25,945 nt of DNA, taken from a virus. Within the stretch, counting starts at the first letter, position 1, and each line of letters opens with the position of its first letter. Location: the IMG/VR virus record IMGVR_UViG_3300030106_003839, positions 7,836 through 33,780 of that record, one strand, 5' to 3'. The notes below the pieces were generated by a model, which saw nothing but the letters and a program-made list of their open reading frames with translations, had not been told where the DNA came from and did no database searches. Positions 7,758 through 21,792 of the stretch are shown one piece after another. A program made the position numbers and the translations under genes.

Positions 7758-8077
7758 GTGATAAACCAAAGACAGCTAGAAGTTATCGAGGTAGTATTAT
7801 TGATGACAATGCTGTCATTTCCCTTAATATTAAATGGCTGGGGCAAATCATCTTTCTTGCTGGTGCTATTGTATATGGTTATTGGCGCATTGAGTCTCGA
7901 TTGGTTGCATTGGAAGATAAGGTTATTGTTGCAGATGAACAAATTAGGGATTTGGTTGATAAACACATCTTGGCAGAAAGGACTGAGAGACAAGAGCTGG
8001 CAGAGAAGTTAGCGTTTTATGAAAAAGAATTTAACATCAACCCCTTGAGCTGGGGTAAAAAGAAGAAAAAGAAATGA
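7754..8077 (+). CDS. Single-TM coiled-coil protein, holin/spanin-like (copy A)
   Basis: This 107-residue protein starts at GTG 7754 with GGGAGG at 7744-7749. A short polar N-terminus precedes one membrane helix (about residues 27-45, WLGQIIFLAGAIVYGYW). A charged helix follows (46-95) with heptad-like leucines, suggesting a coiled coil. The end is a run of six lysines. The layout fits an inner-membrane spanin or a small holin. It resembles the protein at 8503-8787 around the membrane helix and the start of the coil, so the two look like paralogues. Lysis is an inference from topology and neighbours; no endolysin is visible nearby. Confidence 0.65.
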   Translation: MSDKPKTARSYRGSIIDDNAVISLNIKWLGQIIFLAGAIVYGYWRIESRLVALEDKVIVADEQIRDLVDKHILAERTERQELAEKLAFYEKEFNINPLSWGKKKKKK

Positions 8078-8196
8078 GTGAATTACAAGAGTCTATAAAA
8101 AGAGAGCAGACTCTTGTAATGCTTGCTAGGAATCAAGGTAATAAGCAAATTACCCAGAGAATAATTAAACAATTTTTAAAATGCATTAAGGAGTAG
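8074..8196 (+). CDS. 40-residue helical protein
   Basis: ATG 8074 overlaps the preceding TGA (ATGA), and the frame ends at TAG 8194-8196 just before the next start, filling the gap. The product is a short, basic, amphipathic helical peptide with one Cys near the end (FLKCIKE) and no membrane segment. AAGGAG for the next gene lies in its last codons. Function unknown; supported by coupling and by exact fit between neighbours. Confidence 0.55.
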   Translation: MSELQESIKREQTLVMLARNQGNKQITQRIIKQFLKCIKE

Positions 8197-8198
8197 TG

Positions 8199-8516
8199 AT
8201 GGATTTTATGGCAATATATGGCGAAGCTGGTATGATTGGTGTGGTTGGTGCGATGTTTGTATATCTTGTTATATCTCTATCTAATAAATCGGCGAAACAA
8301 CAAGAGGTGTTAGAAAATTTAAAAGTTGAAAATAAAGGACAATCTGAAACTTTAGAAAATATGGAAGGAATGATTATAAAATTAATTGGCAGATGGAATA
8401 CTTCAGATGATAAATTAGATCGCAAATTTGATGCGATTACAAAAGAAATAAATGATTTAGATAACCAAGTATCAGAATTAAAAGGTTCTATGAGCAGGAT
8501 AAATGGCAGACACTAA
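8199..8516 (+). CDS. Single-TM coiled-coil protein, holin-like
   Basis: ATG 8199 is preferred over GTG 8196 because AAGGAG at 8188-8193 is correctly spaced. The 105-residue product has an N-terminal membrane helix (residues ~10-28, GMIGVVGAMFVYLVISL). A long polar helix follows with leucine/isoleucine heptads (about 35-100), so it is probably a coiled coil. This N-in or N-out single-helix design with a soluble coil is common in small phage holins and membrane-associated assembly proteins. It shares layout but little sequence with copies A and B. It overlaps the next gene by 14 bases. Confidence 0.6.
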   Translation: MDFMAIYGEAGMIGVVGAMFVYLVISLSNKSAKQQEVLENLKVENKGQSETLENMEGMIIKLIGRWNTSDDKLDRKFDAITKEINDLDNQVSELKGSMSRINGRH

Positions 8517-8787
8517 ACCAATTTCAGACTCAAGTAGTTTAAATATTTCATTACCAATGCTCTTTCAGGCGATTGCATTAATTGGTGCTATGGTTTGGGG
8601 GTATGGAGAATTAAATTCAAGAATATCTTTTTTAGAATATCAAGTAAGTATTAATGAGGAACATCTTGGCAGAATGGAAGAAGATGCTAAGGCAAATCAA
8701 AATGCTGAAATACCAGCAGATATTAAGCAAAATCAAAGAATTGATTATTTAGAAAAAGAATTAGATAGATTGAGGAACAATGGATAG
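8503..8787 (+). CDS. Single-TM coiled-coil protein (copy B, paralogue of 7754-8077)
   Basis: The 94-residue product begins inside the end of the previous gene. A Ser/Asp-rich N-terminus is followed by a membrane helix (about residues 18-37, MLFQAIALIGAMVWGYG). A charged helix ends in DYLEKELDRLRNNG. Around the helix it lines up with the 7754-8077 protein: GAMVWGYGELNSRISFLEYQV against GAIVYGYWRIESRLVALEDKV style spacing. This suggests an old tandem duplication with one gene inserted or two genes between. Role probably in the membrane; specific function unknown. It ends with TAG, showing that TAG is used as a stop here. Confidence 0.6.
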   Translation: MADTKPISDSSSLNISLPMLFQAIALIGAMVWGYGELNSRISFLEYQVSINEEHLGRMEEDAKANQNAEIPADIKQNQRIDYLEKELDRLRNNG

Positions 8788-8926: not shown

Positions 8927-9154
8927 ATGGACATTAAATCAATGTTGGTAAAATTAGCTGAAGAGCAGGCTGAAAAGATGCAGGATGAGGCATTGAAGCA
9001 TTTATCTTCTGATGAATTTACAGAAATGTTAGCAACAAAAATCAATGAAAAAGTCAACATACCTTGGATCAATGAAGAGAAAGAGCAGGAGCTTTTTGAA
9101 AAACTTGTTGATGTAATGACAGATATGTTAGAAGGTGTATTTAAAGGTAAATAA
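8927..9154 (+). CDS. 75-residue acidic helical protein
   Basis: ATG 8927 is adjacent to the preceding TAA with AAGGAG upstream. The product is nearly all alpha helix with many Glu and Lys residues (LAEEQAEKMQDEALKHL and NEEKEQELFEKLVDVMTDML) and no membrane segment or catalytic motif. It lies between membrane proteins and may be a soluble partner of one of them. No known family recognised. Confidence 0.55.
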   Translation: MDIKSMLVKLAEEQAEKMQDEALKHLSSDEFTEMLATKINEKVNIPWINEEKEQELFEKLVDVMTDMLEGVFKGK

Positions 9155-9155
9155 T

Positions 9156-9341
9156 ATGAGAAAATTAATGACAATATTAATAACAGTCGCTTTATCAAGC
9201 TCTGTGTATCCAGAATATCACGAACAAGATAGGTATTCCTATAGCGAAATTAAGAAAAAGAAAAAGAAGAAGAAGAAGCTCGCAGAAAAAGGTAAAAAGA
9301 AAAAGAAAGGGTTTTTCTCAAAGGCATTTGGTTCTAAGTAA
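9156..9341 (+). CDS. Secreted poly-lysine miniprotein
   Basis: ATG 9156 has AAAGG eight bases upstream; an upstream in-frame GTG at 9135 lies within the previous gene and is not preferred. The 61-residue product starts with a signal peptide-like segment (MRKLMTILITVALSSSVYP). A Tyr/Glu-rich linker follows, then nine consecutive lysines, a KLAEKG spacer, five more lysines and a short aromatic end (GFFSKAFGSK). Lysines use both AAA and AAG, so the tract is not a single-base run. Export of such a strongly cationic peptide to the periplasm suggests action on the envelope, but this is inference. The stop overlaps the next ATG. Confidence 0.6.
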   Translation: MRKLMTILITVALSSSVYPEYHEQDRYSYSEIKKKKKKKKKLAEKGKKKKKGFFSKAFGSK

Positions 9342-9754
9342 TGCCTAAACAGTTTTATACAATACGGGATTGGTCTGGTGGTATGAACAATCGTAAAGAC
9401 CCTAGGGATTTGCGAGAAAACGAATACTCTTTTATTGAGAACATGTCAATAGATGCGTTGGGGAAGATAAAAACTATAGGCGGTTTATACGATAAAAACG
9501 CTGATTCTGATGGTGATACAAGCTCTACTCCTCTTACGGAGCATTTTGTTACGAGGGCAGCTAATATATTAGGTGGCGGAGGTTATGGTTTATATTACTT
9601 TGAATCTGACCACAGTAAAAACGCAGACCAAACAATTACAGAAACAAAAAGCGGAACAGCCTTAACGATTGGGACAAGTAATGGTAATATTAGTTTTGTT
9701 CGTGTCCAAACAACTCCTGACATACCTGCTGATATTCCTGATTTACCCGGATAG
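9341..9754 (+). CDS. N-terminal part of tail-hub/stabilisation protein, ended by TAG
   Basis: This 137-residue ORF starts at ATG 9341 (TAATG). Its N-terminus, FYTIRDWSGGMNNRKDPRDL followed by a segment ending KIKTIGGLYDK, is the characteristic start of large phage stabilisation or tail-tubular-like proteins, as I remember them. It stops at TAG 9752-9754. The next large ORF at 9767 is in the same frame, separated only by the TAG and four sense codons, and continues the expected protein. It is therefore probably not an independent gene. The options are a nonsense mutation, a readthrough signal, suppression, or a genuine split. Confidence 0.75.
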   Translation: MPKQFYTIRDWSGGMNNRKDPRDLRENEYSFIENMSIDALGKIKTIGGLYDKNADSDGDTSSTPLTEHFVTRAANILGGGGYGLYYFESDHSKNADQTITETKSGTALTIGTSNGNISFVRVQTTPDIPADIPDLPG

Positions 9755-9766
9755 AGTAAGTTAAAT

Positions 9767-12700
9767 ATGTCTACTCCTTCGTCAAGTTACATGTTGTTAA
9801 AGGGTGGTACAGATAATGGTAACAGTACCATTTATACCGCTGATGATTCCGCTACTCAAAATCTTATTAAGGTTGGTGACATCATCAAAGTCACTGGAAC
9901 CGCTAGCAATAATGGTATTTACACAGTAATAGATATTACTACAGATGGTACTGCTTTAGGTAGCACAGGGGATGTGTATTACTCGCTAAAAGGTTCTGCA
10001 TTGACAAACGAAAGCTCTGCCGGTAGTACTGACCCAGAAATAGAAGTTATTAGAGAACCGGGTGATAAATTGCTTGCACTAGGGGACGTGGACGGTGCAA
10101 ACAACATTGATGTGTGGTCTAATAATTCAGCTACGGATTATTCTAATAACAGCTCAGGAGATGATGATGGTGGTTGGACAACTGAAGCAGTTCATGTTAC
10201 AAAGACGGGTGATGATGCACAATATATTTATTATTTTGTAGACGAAGCGGTTAGAATTTGCAATATAAATGAGTTAAATAATTCTCATATTATGTGGTAT
10301 GGATATATTCAGCGACAGCAGTTTGGCTCTTCCGGGACTCCGGGTATGACTTTTTCTGGTTGGCAAGCTTTTAGGAATTTTTTATACCCACCAAAAACTG
10401 CTCATGGTATTTTTTCTTATTGCTATGTAAACTCTGCTGATACAGGTGGTAGCGGTGGCACTAATCCAACTCTTGGTGACGACCCTCACGATAATACAGA
10501 TGCGACTAATTATTATAGCGACAATAGAGGTGTTGCTTTTGTAATGAAAACATCTACAAGCGATTTAAGATTTAGGGCAAATAATACAGGGTTTTCTGGT
10601 TTTTTAAATACAGATGTCAAAACTTTTTTAGGAAATGCATTAGACGATGCCGATGATGTTATAGATTTTGGAGGAACCAATGGGGATGGTGGGGCTACAT
10701 TAATAGATAGTGACGGCTTTACAGCTAGCAATGCTACATTTGTTGTTAGTAGTGGTGTTGGTGTATTAACAAATAGCACGACCGCAAATGGTAGCGTTTA
10801 TTTAAGACTCACTTTAACTGCCAATAAACGATATCAAGTAAGCTTTGATCTGGCCTCTAGTAGCAACGCTAACGGTTCTGTTTCTTTAAGTGCTTCAACT
10901 TCTTATGATAGTAACTCTGCTTCTGGTTCTATTAGTTCAAGTGGTGTTACTAACAATACATTAACAGCCTCTTACTATGCAGATGGTTCTGCCGCAGCTT
11001 ATCTTCATTTAAAAGTAGAATCTACAACAAGCGGAGAGCATGCTGATTTTGACAATATTACAGTAAGAAGAATTGATGTCATAGCTCTTGAAGATACTAA
11101 TCCGACAATGATTACCGATCAATTTAATGTAAATGATGTGATTACTATAGGGGAAGCTTTAGGTACGTATCCAAAAGAGTTTATATTTGGAGCTCTTCAA
11201 AAATCTACGGGAGGGCCAATGACGGTTCTTCGGTCGTATGGAGGAAAGCTTGGAGGAACTGCCCCTCATATATACGCAGATGCAGACACTCCAGTTGTGT
11301 CTAGGGGGTTAGGTTTTAACATTGGAGTATCGGATGGGACAGCGGATGGAGAATGGGGGGCTGGAACGTATGAGTTTTTTCAAACAAAAGTATATGATGG
11401 CCACCAAGAATCTTTACCTGTAAAAATGGGAGATGGAGAAGAAACTACGAATATAGTGGCTGGTACGCATACATCAGCAGGAGGAAAAGCTTTAAGAATT
11501 TCCGTATATGCAGACGTTGGTTATAATGGGCGTATGTCAGGTGCTAGGGTATACACTAGAACATCTGGCTCAGATGATGATTTAATTTTACTATTAGATA
11601 TAGATATTATAAAGGGAGTTAGGACTACTTTAGACGGAGACCACGTTTCTTGGTCTTATCAGTCTGGTAAAGGTTATTATATAGTGGGCCCAGCGGAAGG
11701 AAACGCATCTAGTCCTAATCTAGACACGTACACAACTATCAATGGATTTAGCCCTGATGTTCATTTCAGTTCTTTAGGTGGTACCAATGAGATATTTAAG
11801 ACTTCGGTTATTGCAAACAGAAGAGCTTTTATAGCAAATGTAAAAACCAAAGAATCTACAGGTGAGTTAAAGCGTTATGGTGATAGAATTATGTATAGTG
11901 AAATTGGAAAATTTGATACATTTCTTAGTCATAATTTTATTGATGTTTCAAAGGGTGACTATGGTGAGTATGTTGCTTTAGAAACATTTGCAGATCGACT
12001 ATTGGCGTTTAAACATAACATTATTCACATTATAAATATTGCAAGTCCTAGTGTAGCAAGTTGGTATTTAGAAGACACAATTAAATACAACGGTGTACAG
12101 TTTTCCTTTAGCGTTGCCAAAACTAAAAATGGCATTGCTTGGGTTTCTGACGATGGTTGCTATTTGTATGATGGTACACGGGTAACAAACCTTATTGATA
12201 GAAAAATCGCTGTTAGCAATGCTTCTTACTCTAATATAGACGTTACATGGAATGATTGGTATAGAGGAACTGCTTTTTTAAAAGATGTTATGTTAGGCTA
12301 CGATCCAATAAGCAATTCTTTGTTAATGTTTAGAAGTCCGAATGATTCAACAAATAATTCTAATACAGGGTGGATGTATGATTTTGATACTGGAGCTTGG
12401 GTGTATCACACAGGTATTTTTACAGACAGTAGGACATATACAAATTTTATTACCGACTGGAATAATAATCTAACAACAGGGGGGCAGGCTGGGTCTCTTG
12501 TTGTATTTGAAAAGTTTTTACCAATAAGCAAATCTATAACTAATCAGCGATTTGTCACAAGGGATATAGATTTTGGAGTACCCGGTTTGACAAAAAAGAT
12601 TTACAAAGTAGTCGTTACTTATAAATCAGACGGTTCAGAAACTACCCCTTTCACATACGCCATAGACGGTAAGCAAAACTTCTCAGGTGATGGCGGAGGC

Positions 12701-12880
12701 ACATTTACTGGTAATTTTGTAGACACTTCAGGTAAATGGGACGTAGTTACTCTAACTCCTTCCTCTACAATTTCTTGCCAAAGTATACAAATTAAATTTG
12801 TATCTCCAAGTGCAGGAGTATTTGAAATCAATGATATGTCTATTCAATATAGAGTTATCCGTAATTTAGAGTCAACTTAA
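9767..12880 (+). CDS. Large tail-hub/stabilisation protein (main part)
   Basis: This 1037-residue ORF is in frame with 9341-9754. ATG 9767 has no Shine-Dalgarno site, in contrast to most genes here, so it may not be a true start. With the amber codon read, the product would be 1179 residues. Visible segments include GDKLLALGDVDGANNIDVW (~104-122), a beta-rich Ser/Gly/Asn region (~150-410), and a propeller-like second half with SYQSGKGYYIVG, LLAFKHNIIHII and DDGCYLYDGTRVTNL. A last domain ends in INDMSIQYRVI. This layout is that of proteins closing the portal or forming the podovirus tail hub (gp10-like or tail-tubular-B-like). The assignment is from pattern and context. Confidence 0.75.
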   Translation: MSTPSSSYMLLKGGTDNGNSTIYTADDSATQNLIKVGDIIKVTGTASNNGIYTVIDITTDGTALGSTGDVYYSLKGSALTNESSAGSTDPEIEVIREPGDKLLALGDVDGANNIDVWSNNSATDYSNNSSGDDDGGWTTEAVHVTKTGDDAQYIYYFVDEAVRICNINELNNSHIMWYGYIQRQQFGSSGTPGMTFSGWQAFRNFLYPPKTAHGIFSYCYVNSADTGGSGGTNPTLGDDPHDNTDATNYYSDNRGVAFVMKTSTSDLRFRANNTGFSGFLNTDVKTFLGNALDDADDVIDFGGTNGDGGATLIDSDGFTASNATFVVSSGVGVLTNSTTANGSVYLRLTLTANKRYQVSFDLASSSNANGSVSLSASTSYDSNSASGSISSSGVTNNTLTASYYADGSAAAYLHLKVESTTSGEHADFDNITVRRIDVIALEDTNPTMITDQFNVNDVITIGEALGTYPKEFIFGALQKSTGGPMTVLRSYGGKLGGTAPHIYADADTPVVSRGLGFNIGVSDGTADGEWGAGTYEFFQTKVYDGHQESLPVKMGDGEETTNIVAGTHTSAGGKALRISVYADVGYNGRMSGARVYTRTSGSDDDLILLLDIDIIKGVRTTLDGDHVSWSYQSGKGYYIVGPAEGNASSPNLDTYTTINGFSPDVHFSSLGGTNEIFKTSVIANRRAFIANVKTKESTGELKRYGDRIMYSEIGKFDTFLSHNFIDVSKGDYGEYVALETFADRLLAFKHNIIHIINIASPSVASWYLEDTIKYNGVQFSFSVAKTKNGIAWVSDDGCYLYDGTRVTNLIDRKIAVSNASYSNIDVTWNDWYRGTAFLKDVMLGYDPISNSLLMFRSPNDSTNNSNTGWMYDFDTGAWVYHTGIFTDSRTYTNFITDWNNNLTTGGQAGSLVVFEKFLPISKSITNQRFVTRDIDFGVPGLTKKIYKVVVTYKSDGSETTPFTYAIDGKQNFSGDGGGTFTGNFVDTSGKWDVVTLTPSSTISCQSIQIKFVSPSAGVFEINDMSIQYRVIRNLEST

Positions 12881-15707: not shown

Positions 15708-18700
15708 ATGTCACAAAGACATATAAAATCACTATATGATACTGCAATTAAGGAATACCCAGAGAATACAAACTTTGGAACTTTAGATGAGTTTTATGAA
15801 AAGATACAAGACCCTGAAAAAGGTAAAATTCTTTATGATGGCCTGACGAGTAAAGGCTACAAAAATCTAGGTGATTATGAGTCTTTTCAAATAAAAATAT
15901 CTAGTAAAGCCCCAGATATAACAGCAGATTCTGTTTTAGTTATTCCTGAAGAAGTTGAAACTCCACAAGAAACAAACCTTCAAAAAGTAATGAGGGCCTT
16001 AGAGGAAGGTCGTGACAATCCTCAATTTATTATGAGTGCGATGAAGGATAACGATCCTATAAAAAGGCTTAATGAATCCGTATCAAAGATGCCTAAGTTT
16101 GCAGGATTGATTCCAACAGAGCAAATAACGGGTCTTCCTAGAATACAACCACCACCTACAGAATTTAAAAAGAAATATGATGCATTAGATGACGATGGTA
16201 AATACACATTATTTAAATCCGAAGTTGTTAAAAGAAAAAGAAAAAAAAATATTAGCGAAAGAGATGCATGGAAAGAAATATATAGAGAGACAGGTAAGAC
16301 ACCTCCGGGTCTTTTAGATTTAGCTTTAGAAAAATCTATTACGGGTGGCGTGTTGAGGCTGTTTGGTAGGGACATAGGCTTTGACATTAAAGAGTATCCG
16401 GAAAGAGAAGAAACGCTTTCTTTAGATGCTCTAGAAGATTTCGCAACAGGTGCTATGTCTTTAGTTATGCCAACAGATGCTTTGTTGTTTGGTTTTGGCG
16501 GTGGTATTGGTGCTAAAGCAGGGTTAAAAGGTGCTAATGCTGTTAAGAGTCAAGTAAAGCAAATAGGCAAGTTTGCTGATGAAGTTGCTTTAAAAATATC
16601 TAAGTCAAAAAAAATACCATTGCCACAAGCTAGAGTAATTACGAAAAATGCAGTTAGCAGGATTACAGGTGGTGCAGGGGGATTTGGAGCTTTTGATGCT
16701 GGTAGGAACATAGTAGACCAGATTGAGCTTACAGGAGAGGTTGACGTTGTAGAAGCTACTAAATCATTTGTAAAGGGTGTTTTAACTGGAGGAACGGTAG
16801 GTTTTGCAGGTGCGGCTGGTTCTTATGTTGGTGGTAAACCTGCTGAATTTGTTTCTGAGGTTTTAGGTCTTGGAACTGTAGGGCCTTTATTGGAGGGTGA
16901 GCTAAAGATCACTGGAGAAGAAGGTGTTATTGAAAGTAAAGAAGCAAGAGATAGATATTTTCGTGGTTTGGTAGATGCCTCTGGAACTATCGTTGGGTTG
17001 CGACTACTAAAACAATTAAAGCCAAGGCAACAAAAAGTTATTCAGGAAAGAATAGCTGAAGAGATAAAATCTCGTGCTGAAGAAACGGGTCAGTCTGAAA
17101 TAAAGATTGCTAATAAAATACAAGGTGAATTAAAAACTGCTGTTCAGTTAGCAATGGAGGGGAAGTCTCCAGAGAAAGTAAGTAATATAGAAAAGAGAGA
17201 GTCTTTTGGAAAGGCACAAGAAAGAAATAGAAAAGTAGTAGAAGAAGCCTTTGACAGAGTAAATAAAGAAGTAAAAGAACTAGCAAAAGATATGGATGCT
17301 TTGGAAAAAGCAGGAACTGAACAGTCTATAATGGATCAATATCAAAATAGAATAGACCGTAAAATAGAGTTTCAAAACATGTTAGCTGAGGATTTAAATA
17401 TAATTACGCCTAGACAGGTTAGGGAAGATGGGGTTGCTAATCCTCAGAACGTACAAACTGGGCCACTTCTTTTACCTCCTAAGTATGAATCTCCTATAAA
17501 AATACAAACGGTTTATAGGACTAAAGAAGATGCTAAAACAATATTGTCAGAGTTAGATAGGAAAGCTAGAAAAGAACAAGAAAGGTTAGACAAGGCACTT
17601 GAAACAGGTTATGAGCCATTGTTTCCGTCAACTAACATTCCTAAAATGTTTGGTGCAGATAGATTATTGGTAAATCCATCTAAGCTTCAACCGACTGAAA
17701 ATCTATCAGTGGCTCTTCATCCACCTAAGTTAGGAAGGATACAAAACGCAAAATTAGTTCAAAGAAATATTATAGAGCAAAATAAGGCTAACAGAAAAAC
17801 TGTTCAACAATTACCACCTGAAAAGAAAATAGAAGGATACCAGTTACAAAAAGAATTTAGTGACTTAACAGAGACTCTTAGAGTAAATGAAAATAGGCTT
17901 TCTTCTGAAAACTTAACACAAAGAGAAAAGTTAAATATTGAAAGATCAAACGAAAGAGTAAAAGATTTAATTTCAGAAGCTCAAGAAAGTGCAAATTCAA
18001 AAGGTATTGAATTGCAAATCTTTATGGGTATCCCTACTCCTAAAATATTAAAAGATTTATTTGGTTCATCTAAGAACAAACCAAAGAGTTTATTGGCTCC
18101 TGATATAAATAAAAAATATGAAAATGCTATAAAAAGATTAAACAAAAAGTTGCCTGAAGAAACTCCTCAAGTTGATCCCAAGCAAAAATCAGAGCCTGTA
18201 CCGGAAGCCAAATACAGAAATAACATTATAGACCCGACATTTTTTGCCACTGACATGGTTAACAGAGTAAGGTCTAGTGGTGGTCAGGCATCAGTAGAAA
18301 TTTCTGACTTAGCTAGAAGAGCAATAGATATTAAAAAGAGAATAAGTGGTGAATTGTCAGAGGTTATTTTCCCTGCACAAAAAATTATGGGATCATCTCC
18401 TTTGTCAAAGGATGGCAGAGCAGTGTTTAATTTATCTCAATTTAAGAAGGTAAAGATTAACGGTCAGGAAGTATATCAAAATAAATTACTTTCTGGTATA
18501 GAGGGTATGGATGTTTTTAAATACAATAAAAACGAAATGAAAATAATAGAACTTGCTAGAGATGTCATTGAGGCTAGGGGCAAGCAAATGGAAAGAGCTG
18601 GGGTGGTACAGCAAAAACCAGATGGCTCAATAGAACCTTTTAAGGTTTTAGGAAGGAATATTGCACCAAGAATTATGAGTCCCGAATTTTACAGTATACT

Positions 18701-20849
18701 CGAATTACCAATAGGAGAGAAAACTGGCACGCACCCTCATTTTAGAATATTAATTAAAGAATGGGCAAAGGCAAATCCCGGCAATTCGTATGAAGATATA
18801 AAAGCATATTTTGAATCTCAGGCAAAAAACTTTAGAGGAGAAAGGGGCCAAGGTGAAGCAGGTTATCCAACTAGAACAACTCAAGCAGAGCACAGTAGAA
18901 TATGGAGCAATATACCTCATGCAATAAAAATTAATGGTGAACTTGTTCCAATGGTTGAATACAGACCTTTTCAATATGTCAGCAGACTTGCTGAAACAGG
19001 CTCTGCTAGAATTGGAGTAGTTAAAACATTTGGTCAAGAACTAAATAATACTAGCGTTGTTGAAGATTTAAAGCTTAAGTTTGCAAAAGAGGGTGGAAAT
19101 CCTCAATTAGTACATGACTTGATAAAATCTATTAGCGGTGTTCCCGTTGAGCCCCCTTTAATTGTTGGAAGGAATTATGCTTATTCTACTATGGCAAGAG
19201 CTCAAAGAGGACTTGGTATTGGTATTGATTTTGTAAAAAATTCTGCACTTTCACTTTCTTTTTTTACAAATACATTTGAACCTCTTGGGAATGTAAGGAA
19301 GCATGCTGGTATGCCGGAAATGTTAAAATCGATATTTAACATAACCACCAATCCAAACGCTGTTACAGAGTTTTTAAGGTTGCAAGGGTCTATAACATCA
19401 GAAGTAAGAAACTTTTCTATAGATAGGAGTAGGCCTTTTGAGTCTTTAGGTAATGCGGTATCGGATTTTCAAAGAAGGTTATTTGGCTTTCAATATGCAA
19501 ATGAGTTTCAAGAAGTATTAGCGGCTCAAGTTTACAAGGACAAAATAAATAATAAATTTAAACAAGGAAAAGGAACTTCAAAAGATGCTCTATTGCTTAG
19601 AGAATTAGATTTTACAAGAGATCAAGCTGAGGCAATAATAGAAGGAACAGCCCCTCAAGAGCTATATGATGCCGTAATTAGAACAGCCGCCTCTAAACTT
19701 ACAGGTGGAGCTCAAGCTAAGGGGGAGCAGTCTAGATTAGAGCAAAATAAGTATTATAAAGCAGGTATTAAGTTCGATCAATACGCACAGACAAAACTTA
19801 GGTCTCTTGTTAGAAGCATGCGTACTTACAAAGAAGCTATTAAAGAAGGTGCTAAGGAAGGAGATTATAAGAAGTGGGTTGATGCAAACAGATTAATGGC
19901 TAGTGAAATATTAGGAACTGCAATATCTGGTATGACCACTCAAATTTTGCTATCATTAATTTATGGAGGTACAGATAATTTAAGAATAAAATTTAATGAA
20001 ATAACAGGTGAAGAGCCTGTAGATGTAGACCTACCCGTTATTGGTAAAGTTCCAATACCTCAACTAGAAACTCAACAAGTAGAGGTTCCTATTATAGGTG
20101 AAACTACATTGCCAACTGGCAGGTCTTTAAAAACATTAGCTGATTTTGCTGTAGAATCTTATGTTTATTCTGCTTTTGCCGGTGTTTATGGCAGTCTTTT
20201 GCAATCAACGTCAGAAGGTAAATTAATGCAAAATCCTTTAGAGTTGTCTTTTCCTGTTCAGGTTTTAGAGGAAGGGATAAAAGCTTATAAAGGAGAAAAA
20301 GGAAGATATGCTTATAAAGAAGCAGATGAAAGATTTTATGAGGCAATTAAAAGGTTTTTCCCTGTTAATAGATTTGCAAGAACAGTAGCAGTTGCTACAG
20401 GATTTGGAAATCCACAAGCACAAAAAAACGACAACGCTATTAGAGCTTATTACAGATGGAAGTTTAAAAATAAATACGGTGGCAGGTATAGCGGTAACTT
20501 AGATGAAGATATTAAAAATTTTAGAAAAAATATGTCTAGTGCTTATGAAGTAATAAAAAACAGTAAAGACCCTCTAGGAACTGATGCCGAAATAGCTAAT
20601 GAATTTGTAGAAAAAGCTTTGAATATCAAAGGAAAAAGCCAGAGCAGTGCAATCTCATCCATAAGAGCTAGAATGTTTTTAACAAAATCAAAAATAGCAC
20701 CGGGAAAAGATTTTGAAACTGAAGAAGAAAGAAGAGAAGATTTAAAAAGGACTATAGGAATACAGGCTTACGAAGTATTAGAAGCCCACGACAGAAGACT
20801 AGAAGATTATATAGAATACGATATAAAAACAATGTTTAAAGATTATTAA
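15708..20849 (+). CDS. Giant internal virion/ejection protein (1713 residues)
   Basis: This is the longest gene. ATG 15708 lies three bases after the previous stop, without a clear ribosome site. Hydrophobic Gly/Ala-rich segments occur at about residues 245-280 (TDALLFGFGGGIGAKAG) and 318-395. A highly charged helical region spans ~440-830. A compact middle domain at ~840-1190 includes GTHPHFRILIKEW and ends with a hydrophobic SALSLSFFTNTF. More hydrophobic stretches lie at ~1403-1421 and ~1485-1500. I see no transglycosylase catalytic motif of the gp16 type. Similar giant proteins at this position in podovirus-like genomes are internal proteins ejected with DNA; large polyvalent phage proteins are another possibility. 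The gene ends overlapping the stop of a - strand gene. Confidence 0.6.
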   Translation: MSQRHIKSLYDTAIKEYPENTNFGTLDEFYEKIQDPEKGKILYDGLTSKGYKNLGDYESFQIKISSKAPDITADSVLVIPEEVETPQETNLQKVMRALEEGRDNPQFIMSAMKDNDPIKRLNESVSKMPKFAGLIPTEQITGLPRIQPPPTEFKKKYDALDDDGKYTLFKSEVVKRKRKKNISERDAWKEIYRETGKTPPGLLDLALEKSITGGVLRLFGRDIGFDIKEYPEREETLSLDALEDFATGAMSLVMPTDALLFGFGGGIGAKAGLKGANAVKSQVKQIGKFADEVALKISKSKKIPLPQARVITKNAVSRITGGAGGFGAFDAGRNIVDQIELTGEVDVVEATKSFVKGVLTGGTVGFAGAAGSYVGGKPAEFVSEVLGLGTVGPLLEGELKITGEEGVIESKEARDRYFRGLVDASGTIVGLRLLKQLKPRQQKVIQERIAEEIKSRAEETGQSEIKIANKIQGELKTAVQLAMEGKSPEKVSNIEKRESFGKAQERNRKVVEEAFDRVNKEVKELAKDMDALEKAGTEQSIMDQYQNRIDRKIEFQNMLAEDLNIITPRQVREDGVANPQNVQTGPLLLPPKYESPIKIQTVYRTKEDAKTILSELDRKARKEQERLDKALETGYEPLFPSTNIPKMFGADRLLVNPSKLQPTENLSVALHPPKLGRIQNAKLVQRNIIEQNKANRKTVQQLPPEKKIEGYQLQKEFSDLTETLRVNENRLSSENLTQREKLNIERSNERVKDLISEAQESANSKGIELQIFMGIPTPKILKDLFGSSKNKPKSLLAPDINKKYENAIKRLNKKLPEETPQVDPKQKSEPVPEAKYRNNIIDPTFFATDMVNRVRSSGGQASVEISDLARRAIDIKKRISGELSEVIFPAQKIMGSSPLSKDGRAVFNLSQFKKVKINGQEVYQNKLLSGIEGMDVFKYNKNEMKIIELARDVIEARGKQMERAGVVQQKPDGSIEPFKVLGRNIAPRIMSPEFYSILELPIGEKTGTHPHFRILIKEWAKANPGNSYEDIKAYFESQAKNFRGERGQGEAGYPTRTTQAEHSRIWSNIPHAIKINGELVPMVEYRPFQYVSRLAETGSARIGVVKTFGQELNNTSVVEDLKLKFAKEGGNPQLVHDLIKSISGVPVEPPLIVGRNYAYSTMARAQRGLGIGIDFVKNSALSLSFFTNTFEPLGNVRKHAGMPEMLKSIFNITTNPNAVTEFLRLQGSITSEVRNFSIDRSRPFESLGNAVSDFQRRLFGFQYANEFQEVLAAQVYKDKINNKFKQGKGTSKDALLLRELDFTRDQAEAIIEGTAPQELYDAVIRTAASKLTGGAQAKGEQSRLEQNKYYKAGIKFDQYAQTKLRSLVRSMRTYKEAIKEGAKEGDYKKWVDANRLMASEILGTAISGMTTQILLSLIYGGTDNLRIKFNEITGEEPVDVDLPVIGKVPIPQLETQQVEVPIIGETTLPTGRSLKTLADFAVESYVYSAFAGVYGSLLQSTSEGKLMQNPLELSFPVQVLEEGIKAYKGEKGRYAYKEADERFYEAIKRFFPVNRFARTVAVATGFGNPQAQKNDNAIRAYYRWKFKNKYGGRYSGNLDEDIKNFRKNMSSAYEVIKNSKDPLGTDAEIANEFVEKALNIKGKSQSSAISSIRARMFLTKSKIAPGKDFETEEERREDLKRTIGIQAYEVLEAHDRRLEDYIEYDIKTMFKDY

Positions 20850-21579: not shown

Positions 21580-21792
21580 CTAAAAAGGGCTCTCATCCTT
21601 CTTTTTTGGCTCGTTTAATTGACCAGACAAGTATCTGTTGCCGTTTTTGTCTTCATTAATCCATAAAGCAACGTCTTTTGTTGAACCGTTGAACATACCG
21701 TTTCCAGTATAGTCAGGTTTTTTATCTCCGTCTTTCTTGTACTTGTTCTTCCAGAGTTTAAACGTCTGGTCTTTTACTTTGTATTCAGCCAT
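21580..21792 (-). CDS. Small DUF736-like protein with SSB-like tail
   Basis: The 70-residue protein has a strong AGGAGG site upstream. The pattern FKLWKNKYKK, then KPDYTGNG, VALWINEDKNGNRYLSGQLNEP resembles the small DUF736 family (beta-rich, PDY followed by W...G..YLS), as I recall it. The last residues are KKKDESPF, an acidic tail ending Pro-Phe, similar to the protein-binding tip of single-stranded DNA-binding proteins. The gene is the last before a strong terminator and belongs to the recombination block. DNA binding or recruitment of a replication protein is plausible but unproven. Stop codon is TAG. Confidence 0.6.
   Translation of the reverse strand: MAEYKVKDQTFKLWKNKYKKDGDKKPDYTGNGMFNGSTKDVALWINEDKNGNRYLSGQLNEPKKKDESPF

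Follow-up and report, generated by a model that had tools for sequence, protein, structure and literature searches.

The tail nozzles T7 gp12, P22 gp10, the phicrAss001 muzzle, and the cyanophage A4 nozzle are single chains. SU10 gp17 (PDB 7z47, 7z4b) is also one polypeptide, in which an N-terminal platform segment leads into the propeller and inserted domains open it (PMC9509320). We analyzed a stretch of viral DNA of 25,945 nucleotides (the window), which belongs to a virus record of 33,780 bases. SU10 gp17 is the best fold match for the protein encoded at the locus described here, although there is no detectable sequence similarity and, in contrast to gp17, the protein is divided between two genes, ORF1 and ORF2. 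A preliminary description of the window had proposed that the in-frame TAG codon separating them reflects a population nonsense variant, programmed readthrough, a local suppressor tRNA, or a natural split. We consider it very likely that the TAG is a normal stop codon and that ORF1 and ORF2 are neighbors that arose when a single tail-nozzle gene underwent fission long ago, within one uncultured phage clade.

Layout of the locus and its relation to nozzle proteins

ORF1 (9341–9754, plus strand, 137 residues) is a separate gene for the N-terminal part of the nozzle protein, and its ATG overlaps the stop codon of the gene at 9135–9341 (TAATG). The TAG at 9752–9754 (plus strand), the genuine stop codon of ORF1, is followed by a 12-nt intercistronic spacer (AGTAAGTTAAAT, 9755–9766, plus strand), the length and encoded residues of which vary among relatives. 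ORF2 (9767–12880, plus strand, 1037 residues) starts at its own conserved ATG and encodes the β-rich remainder of the protein; a small domain at its start (YMLLKGG...IKVGDIIKVTGTASNNGIYTV, 9788–9937, plus strand) is matched in relatives by phrog_1236, albeit weakly (E values of 1.9e-4 to 0.1). As first described, ORF1 and ORF2 share a reading frame in the window, with TAG and the codons AGT AAG TTA AAT between them, and translation through the stop gives 1179 residues. The description of ORF2 as being without its own ribosome site is accurate to the extent that the site is weak (anti-Shine-Dalgarno duplex of −3.3 kcal/mol), but the ORF1 start is equally weak (−3.1 kcal/mol), and weak sites are also observed at the tightly packed starts at 2324, 3331, and 12880.

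The earlier assignment of the protein to the tail hubs finds support at the level of the fold but not from sequence families. Pfam, PHROG, and PDB sequence searches gave no nozzle match and nothing useful for ORF1 or ORF2, tblastn with both ORFs against annotated phage genomes gave no match, and a search of genome contigs gave one weak match (23%) in a Calditrichota MAG. T7 gp12 was rejected as a match by sequence, there being no support from hhalign, though the N termini look alike by eye. In AlphaFold models of a fused homologue (L010, mean pLDDT 62.7) and the joined window protein (69.5), it is mainly the C-terminal two thirds or more that can be relied on; the ORF1 models are unreliable, and confidence is lacking over most of residues 1–282 in the joined chain. 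Foldseek analysis of the L010 model identified the SU10 tail (7z47_G, E value 4.1e-13), followed by cyanophage A4, phicrAss001, P22 gp10, and T7 gp12, all of the same fold class, and SU10 was again the best match for the window readthrough model (4.9e-12). These nozzle matches have significant E values with low TM-scores (0.18–0.29 by query length) and unreliable N-terminal models. The same genome, within the window, encodes an SU10-type capsid protein and gives a sub-threshold match to SU10_adaptor, in agreement with the placement in the nozzle fold. For a gene elsewhere in the window that encodes 1713 residues (15708–20849), the only PHROG match is weak and its function unknown.

ORF1 and ORF2 most likely encode subunits that jointly build the nozzle, and, by analogy with SU10 gp17, the N-terminal platform and the early blade strands may come from ORF1 and complement ORF2. 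The lack of a confident model for the place of ORF1 in the nozzle fold would also be consistent with two real genes of which ORF1 encodes no nozzle subunit, having taken on a new role after the split, e.g. as an assembly factor. We regard this as unlikely, given that ORF1 aligns with the N terminus of the fused gene of more distant relatives (about 27–41% identity), always adjoins ORF2, and has diverged to a degree similar to that of ORF2.

The gene boundary in relatives

A profile search identified 80 contigs and a second profile search with the N-terminal part identified 34, and the junction of each contig was classified by script. The two-gene form is present in 76 virus contigs, the window included, with the boundary at an equivalent place; all 76 use the equivalent M-x-x-P codon as the ORF2 start, and the length of ORF1 is, with few exceptions, about 125–149 residues. 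A further contig, L082, also looks split; it is missed by the M-x-x-P motif and is additional to the 76. The preliminary description had itself stated that homologues breaking off and resuming at this position would show two real genes, and 76 contigs do so. The ORF1 stop codon is TAA in 62 of the split contigs and TAG in 14. The gap between the genes ranges from −1 to +20 nt, with values of −1 (18 contigs, the TAATG overlap), 0 (12), 1 (4), 2 (8), 3 (12), and 12 nt (13), and of 5–20 nt in the others. ORF1 and ORF2 are in different frames in 35/76 split contigs, and in 21 of the 37 groups that remain when these contigs are collapsed at 90% protein identity. In-frame spacers encode SKLN, SKLE, QVYI, SKDI, DTG, and other peptides, with unrelated residues encoded by the longer ones, and elsewhere the spacer is shorter or absent. 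In L094 (3139–4053), ORF2 ends after 305 residues and stops abound in the frame beyond it; a frameshift in that contig or its assembly is the probable cause.

The DNA of three IMG/VR contigs is near-identical to that of the window or matches it at about 90% identity, and in these, as in the window, the frame is open through the stop. L002, an independent contig, retains TAG as the ORF1 stop, and L003 and L004, the two nearest divergent relatives, have TAA at this codon, followed by the spacer AGTAAGTTAGAG and the same ORF2 ATG. The TAG is thus not a read error; moreover, the position of the stop is conserved while its identity (TAG/TAA) is unconstrained, which argues against TAG-specific decoding. 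The dN/dS values against L003 (0.027 for ORF1 and 0.077 for ORF2) reveal strong purifying selection on both genes. ORF2 of L003 (2365–5685) encodes 1106 residues compared with 1037 in the window, with an insert of approximately 70 residues after VITIGD, implying that the protein tolerates insertions.

Readings of the TAG codon

A nonsense mutation in a normally intact gene, be it a population variant or a sequencing error, finds no support beyond the intact distant relatives, and its probability is negligible: L002–L004 carry a stop at the same codon and refute it, the boundary is shared by 75 other contigs, and both halves are under strong purifying selection. Phages that recode TAG exist, and the codon could in principle be decoded as an amino acid via a suppressor tRNA or genome recoding. 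However, TAG is the normal stop of at least five other genes, on which basis genome-wide recoding had already been judged unlikely; we confirmed the ends of two genes at 8074–8196 and 8503–8787, and of three minus-strand genes at 21580, 21817, and 23577. Decoding by a suppressor tRNA or by recoding is also contradicted by the TAA at the same site in relatives, and ARAGORN identified no tRNA gene in either the 33.8-kb record (possibly incomplete) or the closest relatives, making this reading extremely improbable.

In programmed readthrough, some ribosomes would decode the TAG to give a 1179-residue fused nozzle beside the 137-residue product, as might be envisaged from the open frame through the stop in the window and L002–L004, and from the fused protein made by distant relatives. 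However, no single protein can be made by readthrough in the 21/37 groups with out-of-frame genes, the stop switches freely between TAG and TAA, and the spacer codons are not conserved. There is no stimulating RNA structure at the stop of the window, where folding is no better than that of shuffles (z = +0.86); among three relatives folded at the stop, one (L028) beats most shuffles (z = −1.9). No Rfam match was found in the window and no terminator-like site near the junction, where five promoter matches, all on the minus strand, are below the shuffle mean. We consider programmed readthrough at this locus very improbable.

Origin and translation of the two genes

The preliminary description took the full-length protein to be one polypeptide, which holds for more distant relatives only, 29 contigs having a single open gene across the junction site, and not for the split clade. 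These fused homologues (IMG/VR L009–L025, L106–L122) are homologous to both ORFs, but form one uninterrupted gene compared with two in the window; complete fused genes encode 874–1167 residues, whereas the open frames of two matches, L113 and L118, are shorter, at about 530 residues. The aligned fused homologues are without the approximately 31-residue segment that holds the stop of the window, which in the alignment lies between a conserved GYGLYYFE motif and the small IKVTGTASNNG domain. In a tree of the shared part, one fused/split change suffices (SH-aLRT 100), and the midpoint root has fused forms to either side; this tree was built by a quick method, some of its branches are long, and no independent evidence fixes its root. 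The simplest reading of the tree is one old fission and, because the rooting is by midpoint only, fission rather than fusion is likelier but not proven. Neighboring genes are in matching order in several fused relatives (L010, L014–L025). A 106-residue gene at 8196–8516 of the window is 83–87% identical in L014, L015, L017, L018, and L025, in which the nozzle is only about 33–36% identical, suggesting mosaic exchange or unusually strong conservation of that gene.

Closely spaced gene pairs often encode subunits of one complex, and, as in the translationally coupled pairs described previously, ORF1 and ORF2 are on the same strand with an overlap or a short gap (PMC10666635). The overlaps and short gaps across the family make coupled translation by termination-reinitiation plausible, and it is from these that we infer coupling here. 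Such coupling falls steeply with distance and is nearly abolished at about 20 nt (PMC10666635); counting against the proposed two-gene arrangement are the weak ORF2 Shine-Dalgarno sequence and the 12-nt gap of the window, which is longer than the overlaps where coupling is strongest. ORF1 provides the conserved N terminus and ends in a variable linker, and ORF2, with its own ATG just before the small inserted domain, carries the rest of the protein. In the proposed mechanism, the ribosome would terminate on ORF1 and start ORF2 at a distance of −1 to +20 nt, which in the window is 12 nt. This start may occur through reinitiation or through de novo binding to the weak ORF2 site, and at a 12-nt gap de novo initiation may contribute. 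The two proteins would then most likely come together to form the nozzle below the adaptor.

The TAG is an ordinary conserved gene boundary, at which two genes should be annotated, and stop-codon recoding is a false lead that is now removed; the interest that is left lies in the two-gene tail nozzle. With its boundary occurring both in and out of frame, the family is a clean and well-sampled example of fission in the gene of a phage structural protein. A two-chain nozzle, if true, would amount to a minor structural variant of a machine that is well studied, the solved nozzles being single-chain. We lean toward the view that, after one old fission beside an inserted domain, the uncultured phages of this clade make their nozzle from two chains that are translated separately; such a break may let the N-terminal piece be swapped, or let it move as the genome is released.
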